DNA of 52,487 nt from a virus, in the IMG/VR virus record IMGVR_UViG_3300035670_000291, positions 1 through 52,487 of that record; one strand, written 5' to 3'. The position numbers were made by a program, and so were the translations under genes. Positions 37,056 to 46,894 of the stretch are shown in pieces; position 1 is the first letter of the stretch; every line of letters starts with the position of its first letter. Under the pieces are notes generated by a model. The model searched no databases and was not told the DNA's origin. It saw only the letters and a list, made by a program, of their open reading frames with translations.

Positions 37056-37685
37056 TTAAACTAATTCGTATCCTTTTAAATAGTATTCGTTTGCTTTTTT
37101 GTATTTAACTTCTACAAATTCACCATCTGGAGATTTCATAATAACTTTTTCATTTCTTCCAAAAGTTCTTTCTTTTTCAATAGTAGTAGAATAAACTCTA
37201 TCCAAAATAGTAATACCATCCAAATGATCAATCTCATGCTGAACTATAACGGTCATCATAGTTTCGGTAGATACCTGTTCTTTATCTCCATCCGAATTTA
37301 TTTCAAAAGTTAGTTCACCCAAATTATCGGTTTCAATTACAACTTTGCAAGGTCTAATTGTTTTTACAAAACTATCAATTGATTTTGGAATTGACAAACA
37401 TGCTTCATAAAATATAAACCCTTCTTTAGATTTTTCTTTTACCTTTGGGTTTAATAAAAATAATTCTCTATCTCTAAATTTAATTAGACATGCTCTTTTT
37501 TTAATTCCTAATTGAGTTGCAGAAATACCCAATCCAGGATATTCTAACATTCCTTGTTCTAAGGTTTTTCTCAATTCATCTGCTTCTTCTTGTGTAAATT
37601 CGCATCTTTCAACGGGAGTTTTAAGATATTCAAAAAACTCATTGTTGTCTAATCCGTTTGCTTTTTTGTTTTTAATTAATTTCAT
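37056..37685 (-). CDS. Peptide deformylase
   Basis: 209 residues with all three deformylase motifs: GLGISATQLG (51-60), E-A-C96-L-S and QHEIDH (H150, E151, H154). C96 and the two histidines bind the catalytic metal and E151 is the general base. It removes formyl groups from new N-termini. Phage-encoded deformylases are known from cyanophages and other large phages and may speed maturation of phage or host membrane proteins. The ATG overlaps the stop of the UV endonuclease gene by 4 bp. Confidence 0.9.
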   Translation of the reverse strand: MKLIKNKKANGLDNNEFFEYLKTPVERCEFTQEEADELRKTLEQGMLEYPGLGISATQLGIKKRACLIKFRDRELFLLNPKVKEKSKEGFIFYEACLSIPKSIDSFVKTIRPCKVVIETDNLGELTFEINSDGDKEQVSTETMMTVIVQHEIDHLDGITILDRVYSTTIEKERTFGRNEKVIMKSPDGEFVEVKYKKANEYYLKGYELV

Positions 37686-38623
37686 ATTTCGTAAGATTTA
37701 ACAGAAGGTAACCCACTATATTCACAGGTAACTTCTTTTATAAAAGGTATTATTGCTTTTTCTTTTGCTTTTGCTTCAACCATAACATATAAATCCAATT
37801 CGTATGTGTTGGGAAGGTTGTTAATATAATCGGAGTGTGCTTGGGGTTTTTCTTTTTTATTGTTTTCATGCAATGCTTTTGATTCCGAATAATGAACAAC
37901 CGGCACAATTCCTTTAGGCCAAGTTGTTACTGCTAATTTAACTGCCTGTTCTTCTGATAAATCACCTGTACAAAATTGATGGTGGTGATAATCAAAAACG
38001 ATTGGAATGCCAATTTTATTGTGTATATACATTAAATCTCTAACAGAGTACATAGATGCCTTATCATCATTTTCAACCGTAAGCCTCTTTTTAACCGATT
38101 CTGTCAACCTTTCAAAATTTGTACAGAATCTATCCATAGCTGCTATTTTATCCCCATATACCCCATTACAATGGATATTAATCTTATTGTATGGTGTTTG
38201 TGATAATCCCATAGCATCCATAATTCTACCATGAACCTCTAAATCTTTAATAGTATTTTCTACAACCGAATCTTTTGGAGAAACCAATACATTAAATGGT
38301 CCTGGATGGAAAGTTAATCGTTGATTATAGAATGTAGCCTTATCACCACATTTTTGTAAGATTTTATGAATTTCTTTCCAATCTTTTAATTGTTCAAATT
38401 CGTATTCGGTTGCCCACGGAAACATGTCCGAAGACATACGATAAAAATTAATACCATTTTGGTGATTCCAATCTATAATACGTTCTAAATCCGAAACATT
38501 TAGTAAAACCAAATCTGAAACATAATTTAGACCTTTTTGAGTAAAAGTTTTCTTAACCATACTTCTATTGGTTGTAACTTTTTTGCCCATACTCATATTA
38601 ATGCAAGCGTAACCTATATTCAT
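37682..38623 (-). CDS. UV damage endonuclease (UvsE/UvdE family)
   Basis: 313 residues, the usual length. The TIM-barrel pattern is clear: N-terminal MNIGYACINM, YRMSSDMFPWA, RLTFHPGPFNVL, NKINIHCNGVYGDK, LTVENDDKA, VFDYHHHQFC and VVHYSESK, with the conserved His/Glu/Asp residues that bind metals. It nicks 5' to pyrimidine dimers. In T4 this function is served by denV, an unrelated enzyme. A host-type promoter ends 4 nt before the ATG, implying early or middle expression and a leaderless mRNA. It is coupled to deformylase. Confidence 0.9.
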   Translation of the reverse strand: MNIGYACINMSMGKKVTTNRSMVKKTFTQKGLNYVSDLVLLNVSDLERIIDWNHQNGINFYRMSSDMFPWATEYEFEQLKDWKEIHKILQKCGDKATFYNQRLTFHPGPFNVLVSPKDSVVENTIKDLEVHGRIMDAMGLSQTPYNKINIHCNGVYGDKIAAMDRFCTNFERLTESVKKRLTVENDDKASMYSVRDLMYIHNKIGIPIVFDYHHHQFCTGDLSEEQAVKLAVTTWPKGIVPVVHYSESKALHENNKKEKPQAHSDYINNLPNTYELDLYVMVEAKAKEKAIIPFIKEVTCEYSGLPSVKSYEI

Positions 38624-40161: not shown

Positions 40162-40542
40162 TTAACCAAGCTTTAAGGTTAATTTTTTGGGTTTGGCTTC
40201 CTCTCTTTTTTCCAAAGTAATTAGAAGAATACCATTTTTGATTTCGGCTTTTGCTTTTGTTCCATCAAAAACTTTACTGACTCGGATCGTTTCATCTATA
40301 TCAGCGACAATTTTATTAAAAGTTTCGTTTCCTTCTTCTTTCTTTGCTTTTACATGAATTTTATCCTCATAACAACTAATATCAATGTTTTTAGGGTCAT
40401 GTCCTAAAACGGATAAAGCAATTGTTGCAAGGTCATCTTTTACATCTACTGCAAATTTTGAAGGGACAAATGTAGTTGAATGATTTTCCCAAGTTGTGTT
40501 TGTTTCATTGAACAATTCATCAAATAATTTTGAATAATACAT
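40162..40542 (-). CDS. Small heat-shock protein (Hsp20 / alpha-crystallin)
   Basis: 126 residues. The alpha-crystallin domain spans ~28-115: LATIALSVLGHDPKNIDISC, IHVKAKKEE, ETIRVSKVFDGTKAKAEIKN and the hallmark GILLITLEK. Hsp20-like proteins are common in cyanophages and related T4-like phages. As a holdase it may protect phage proteins during assembly. An upstream gap of 86 bp separates it from the HD gene; a terminator follows it. Confidence 0.88.
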   Translation of the reverse strand: MYYSKLFDELFNETNTTWENHSTTFVPSKFAVDVKDDLATIALSVLGHDPKNIDISCYEDKIHVKAKKEEGNETFNKIVADIDETIRVSKVFDGTKAKAEIKNGILLITLEKREEAKPKKLTLKLG

Positions 40543-44906: not shown

Positions 44907-44915
44907 ATAAATATC
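44907..44915 (-). promoter_or_regulatory. Putative late promoter element GATATTTAT
   Basis: Coding-strand GATATTTAT 14 nt before the ATG at 44892. About 40 nt further upstream is a perfect 6-bp inverted repeat ATGTGT-TG-ACACAT (minus strand), a possible operator. Confidence 0.5.
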
Positions 44916-44987
44916 CCTTACAAAAATAAATCCTCTTAAATCACCTTATGATGTGTCAACACATATATCAAAAAAACTCATATAGGG

Positions 44988-45205
44988 AAAAAACTTGACC
45001 GGGATATATTTACGTGTCCGACCGGGGTTCACGCGAATGCGTTTCTTCCAGTTACACGTAATTCAGTGCGCGTGAGTGTGGGTAGTCCTCTGTAACGTAG
45101 ACCAGTTGTGCGTTGCCGGGATGGCACAAGAATCCCGTTGCAACCTTTCGGTCACAACGGGTTCACCCATTAGTTGGGGCTACTCTCGCACGGCATGCAA
45201 TGTTT
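44988..45205 (-). ncRNA. Candidate structured non-coding RNA
   Basis: A ~220-nt gap without any ORF. By hand count 45001-45200 is ~53% G+C in an otherwise A+T-rich genome. On the minus strand: (1) a 12-bp hairpin capped by a GAAA tetraloop at 45161-45134, with two G-U pairs that become A-C mismatches on the other strand; (2) TTGTGC/GCACAA at 45129-45106; (3) TTACGTGT/ACACGTAA (45061-45054 with 45017-45010) enclosing ACTGG/CCGGT and ACGC/GCGT with loop ATTC; (4) a possible closing helix GTGCG+GAGT with ACTC+CGCAC (45191-45182 with 45077-45066). A T6 run at 44993-44988 follows. No match to tmRNA, RNase P, SRP or 6S RNA that I can see. Confidence 0.65.
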
Positions 45206-46823: not shown

Positions 46824-46894
46824 AGCGACGGGTAGGAATTGAACCCCTCCTTCCGGCTGGAATGCCAGATGTGCAACCATTACACTTCCATCGC
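46824..46894 (-). tRNA. tRNA-like gene, best read as tRNA-Gly(UCC); atypical, possibly degenerate
   Basis: Minus strand. Acceptor GCGATGG pairs with CCGTCGC (one G-U); D stem GTGT/GCAC with loop AATGGTT; T loop TTCAATT. The anticodon arm pairs best as TCTGG/CCGGA with an 8-nt loop CATTCCAG, or one pair longer with a 6-nt loop; either way UCC follows a U. In the canonical register the stem has two mismatches and reads UUC. The T stem has only three good pairs. No CCA is encoded. A strong hairpin precedes it at 46905-46932 and a terminator follows at 46719-46746. Confidence 0.6.

Follow-up and report, generated by a model that had tools for sequence, protein, structure and literature searches.

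Does the G+C-rich interval at positions 44988-45205 of this A+T-rich phage DNA encode one large structured RNA, as a sequence-only reading had proposed? The window, by which we mean the whole 52,487-base virus record analysed here (G+C 31.0%), is a fragment of a T4-like phage carrying baseplate, tail-fibre, primase and repair-type genes. Several elements of the initial description held. The interval is a G+C island (51.4%, earlier estimated by hand at about 53%), a T-tract (44988-44993) follows it in the minus-strand reading, and the 12-bp stem capped by GAAA is present (45134-45145/45150-45161). The absence of ORFs was confirmed for minus-strand frames of at least 40 aa, although two ORFs of 46-47 aa lie antisense. 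The minus strand of the region folded better than its shuffles (z -2.93, 0/200 shuffles), the plus strand giving a z of -1.56. No known RNA family was recognized either: Rfam covariance models run on the window and 20 related loci returned nothing at gathering score except tRNAs, and none of the matches below this threshold was credible. Comparison with relatives, however, divided the interval, and we consider it probable (roughly 0.6) that the island consists of two neighbouring elements rather than one structured RNA, placed where two operons of a large T4-like phage, both on the same strand, meet. The features referred to below are:

45121-45198, minus strand: module 1, a terminator-like RNA structure of about 78 nt at the end of the upstream operon (R1 covariance model, folding z)
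45134-45161, minus strand: HP2, a 12-bp stem with a GAAA loop, followed by ATTCTTGTGC (terminator scan, covariation counts)
45165-45180, minus strand: HP1, a small side hairpin, GCCC/GGGT in the window (predicted fold; pairing kept in relatives)
45124-45191, minus strand: possible closing helix of GTGCGAGAGT (45182-45191) with ATTCTTGTGC (45124-45133) (predicted fold)
45050-45069, minus strand: module 2, conserved block 1, GCACTGAATTACGTGTAACT (alignment of 40-41 relatives)
44988-45027, minus strand: module 2, conserved block 2, CCCCGGTCGGACACGTAAATATATCCCGGTCAAG and the T-tract (spacing to block 1, identity)
44949-44986, minus strand: module 3, TTTTGAYAT and a small dyad, ATGTGT..ACACAT (44951-44964) (alignment)
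44907-44915, minus strand: late-promoter-like motif GATATTTAT, upstream of the next gene (spacing to module 2)

The relatives were found first as a 92%-identical copy (L003) and then as a distant syntenic copy, and the set was widened by searching with the neighbouring peptidase and by a pattern scan. After de-duplication, 41 distinct sequences remained, the window counted in, all of them metagenome contigs of large T4-like phages in IMG/VR. Related contigs reached 221 and 238 kb; in the longest (G033, carrying L155-L166; 238,219 bases) all genes lie on one strand and the GC skew is monotonic. By baseplate protein, the nearest cultured relatives were Microcystis phage Mel-JY01 and Flavobacterium phage immuto, at about 40% identity. 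A BLAST search of the element against cultured phages yielded chance matches only, the downstream gene had no match among cultured phages, a pattern scan of bacterial genomes gave three chance matches, none upheld by the profile, and a limited literature search found no description of the element. Nearly always the interval sits between the end of an operon of peptidase and small genes and the start of an operon beginning with C2 and C1, all on one strand. The downstream operon had been called head-like, but its genes in the window are not head genes and include baseplate and tail genes, and 85 kb separate the element from the gp23 capsid gene in the 238-kb relative. Within the structural gene cluster of the window we also noted genes for a UvdE-type UV endonuclease, a peptide deformylase and an Hsp20-like protein (37056-38623 and 40162-40542, minus strand).

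The long-range helices that would have joined the island into one RNA did not survive this comparison. The 8-bp repeat taken for a long-range stem does exist (45010-45017/45054-45061), but its pairing is broken in most relatives and shows no covariation: among 40 relatives, pair 1 was broken in 35 rows, pair 3 in 28 and pair 5 in 15. Likewise, the minimum-energy fold contains a 6-bp stem, UUGUGC/GCACAA, that is broken even in the 92%-identical copy. The conserved helices expected of a single large structured RNA spanning 44988-45205 were not found, and module 2 carries neither a folding nor a covariation signal. The proposal of a structured RNA stood for about a third of the interval, module 1, where compensatory changes were found on the coding strand; module 2 showed no sign of RNA structure in the 41 relatives. 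Nothing was found in support of a decoy, packaging or anti-defence RNA.

Module 1 is a real RNA structure, because it folds far better than its shuffles in every relative and because its stems carry compensatory changes. Against dinucleotide shuffles its mean folding z was -4.66, with z below -2 in 41/41 relatives (shared ancestry ignored). In HP2, whose G-U pairs are on the coding strand, changes on both sides that kept the pair were counted in 29 cells as against 10.8 in shuffles, and in 16 as against 4.9 in a second alignment (shared ancestry again ignored in both counts); in L003, for instance, a G-U pair and the adjacent A-U pair have become A-U and G-U. For module 1, a script aligned the sequences by the TGC that follows the stem, and one row was corrected by hand. 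HP1 has quite different sequences across groups of relatives and still pairs, including a compensatory pair (UA:11/CG:7 in A4). The closing helix fared less uniformly: it is predicted in the window and an analogue (ACAAAG/CTTTGT or equivalent) in many relatives, but others lengthen HP2 instead. The R1 covariance model found one copy of module 1 in the window and one in the 238-kb relative; other records had at most one place each, and their weak second matches were the reverse strand of the same stem.

Its position after a stop codon, its T-rich tail and the picks of a terminator scan led us to read module 1 as a terminator or a structure of the transcript's 3' end. The last upstream stop codon precedes its end by 57-155 nt, and the module comprises a stable G+C-rich hairpin with a T-rich tail immediately downstream (a mean of 5.0 T in the 8 nt after HP2 among relatives, versus 2.4 expected). 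The scan selected the 12-pair GAAA stem in the window and its counterparts in L123 and L104, and L123 has a canonical terminator, TTTTTTGTGC. Module 1 thus resembles intrinsic (Rho-independent) terminators in its G+C-rich stem with a T-rich tail directly after it, in its location shortly after an operon's last gene, and in the way the sequence of the stem varies while its pairing stays. It departs from them in the conserved side hairpin, the frequent closing helix, the TGC(T/C)C after the tail and the weak T-run of the window, where ATTCTTGTGC falls below the relatives' average and is poor for an intrinsic terminator; neither the conserved TGC(T/C)C behind the tail nor the conserved side hairpin is necessary for termination. 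These additions would also suit a processing or protection signal (e.g. an RNase III site or an exonuclease block) on a transcript running into the next operon, for the side hairpin and closing helix are conserved beyond what a terminator needs and the window's tail is weak. We hold this doubtful, as most relatives have a T-rich tail and L123 has its canonical terminator. Module 1 is still best read as a putative intrinsic terminator, or a 3'-end structure, to which a side hairpin has been added. It would be part of the 3' end of the upstream operon's transcript and may form there a terminator-like structure of a long G+C-rich stem, a T-rich tail, the side hairpin and often the closing helix. 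Since there is only one per genome, module 1 is not the generic terminator of these phages.

Module 2 (44988-45069) showed the opposite behaviour. Its blocks had a median pairwise identity of 83-86% (86% in the core), as compared with 70% for the peptidase gene, and the spacer between them, only 48% identical, was constant in length (26 nt in 39/41 relatives). Its mean folding z was +0.46 on the minus strand, with no value below -2 in the 41 relatives, and +0.22 on the other (ancestry ignored), and neither pair counts nor APC-corrected covariation over about 41 relatives gave a consistent signal. A register-free swap test gave weak values, and its best relevant swap for a long-range helix (z -3.3 among 190 tests, ancestry ignored) failed on hand reading, so such helices were discarded, as was a protein-coding origin of module 2, for which stops occur in all six frames in many relatives. 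By profile and pattern, module 2 occurs once per genome, apart from one partial match to block 1, with 1 mismatch, in the 238-kb genome. In module 3, the minus-strand fold of the window gave no significant signal, hand reading revealed several types of dyad among relatives, and as the alignment register fails when the dyad is treated as a column-aligned hairpin, its pair count is uninformative. What looks like a structured RNA in a G+C island can therefore be two neighbours under opposite constraint, one keeping its pairing while its sequence changes and the other keeping its sequence without pairing.

The two modules might nevertheless form a single non-coding RNA that acts in trans, measures about 220-250 nt and stops at the T-tract of module 2, with module 2 supplying conserved single-stranded functional segments. 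They are conserved together, single-copy and syntenic, module 1 is a structured RNA and module 2 does end in a T-tract. We judged this improbable: module 2 shows no sign of folding or covariation, its T-tract is not preceded by a stable hairpin, inspection by eye revealed no consistent promoter motif upstream of module 1, and the distance between the modules varies sixfold (25-152 nt). That distance varies while the spacing from module 2 to the promoter-like motif is fixed, and for this reason we treat modules 1 and 2 as separate.

The motif in question, [GTA]ATA[TC]TTAT, is separated from the module 2 anchor by 141-146 nt in 28/41 relatives, and by exactly 144 nt in 18; it is off the fixed distance in 12/41, and a 13th relative is truncated. 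The coding strand of the 238-kb relative contains 32 copies of [GT]ATATTTAT and the opposite strand 3; of 39 sites of a slightly looser form, 24 are found no more than 80 nt before a start, as against 10% expected. We take it as a putative late-type promoter, "late" by its position and by its resemblance to T4-like late promoters. Like those of T4-type phages, it is short, A+T-rich, strongly strand-biased and shortly upstream of genes; unlike them, its coding strand reads ATATTTAT and not TATAAATA, and this copy has about 100 bp of conserved upstream sequence at fixed spacing. Elsewhere in the 238-kb genome, late-type motifs are not accompanied by a module 2. A second strand-biased motif of that genome, TTTG-N17-23-TATATTT (24 to 5), is likewise found close upstream of genes and resembles the Bacteroidota host promoter. 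In L104, L103, L105, L106, L114 and L139, where the late motif is missing at the fixed distance, sequences such as TTGACACTCATGTGGAAAAATATATTTA stand about 130 bases past the start of module 2 and look like the second of these promoter classes.

The near-fixed spacing to the motif, together with the variable distance to module 1, argues for a role of module 2 as DNA-level control (promoter-linked activator sites, possibly an origin) more than as RNA. Module 2/3 is thus probably a control sequence for the downstream operon: it would act as double-stranded DNA, in which conserved blocks at fixed spacing upstream of the late-promoter-like motif likely bind a regulator of that operon. The main rival reading is an origin of replication, or a different kind of single-copy site acting in cis as DNA (e.g. 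for packaging or recombination). T4 oriE offers an example of a phage replication origin, and module 2/3 resembles origins of that type in being a complex intergenic region that is conserved, occurs once and lies near baseplate genes: there is one copy per 221-238-kb genome, more than 100 bp are conserved at fixed spacing, with an A/T tract and dyads, and the element sits before the baseplate/tail gene cluster. Unlike in such origins, neither iterons nor an initiator gene were seen, and the GC skew, monotonic over 238 kb, does not change at the element, though skew is a weak test in T4-like phages. Because gp23 lies 85 kb from the element and the fixed distance to a promoter motif points to transcription, we regard an origin or other cis site as rather unlikely. 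The remoteness of gp23 also led us to drop a packaging site; PF17289, the single terminase model searched, matched none of five records and is uninformative on packaging.

Transcriptional control of the downstream operon thus remains our preferred reading of module 2/3. A bolder and fairly unlikely proposal is that it constitutes an undescribed, once-per-genome cis element of a large phage family (an origin or a master switch of the tail operon), linked with an RNA three-way junction that would control read-through from the upstream operon. A single-copy conserved element of more than 100 bp stands out in these otherwise fast-changing large phages, and it provides a concrete handle on how expression or replication is controlled or started in unidirectional genomes of 220-240 kb.

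Some tRNA-related observations were made along the way. A borderline tRNA match (29.5 bits, cut-off 29), which ARAGORN did not report, lies at 46824-46894 on the minus strand of the window, and clear tRNAs occur upstream of the element in L107, L102 and L100, at other positions than this one. The 238,219-base relative encodes 26 tRNAs and its own tmRNA, with the tag DEKSTMTYDDLMAFVGMDYAVAA.
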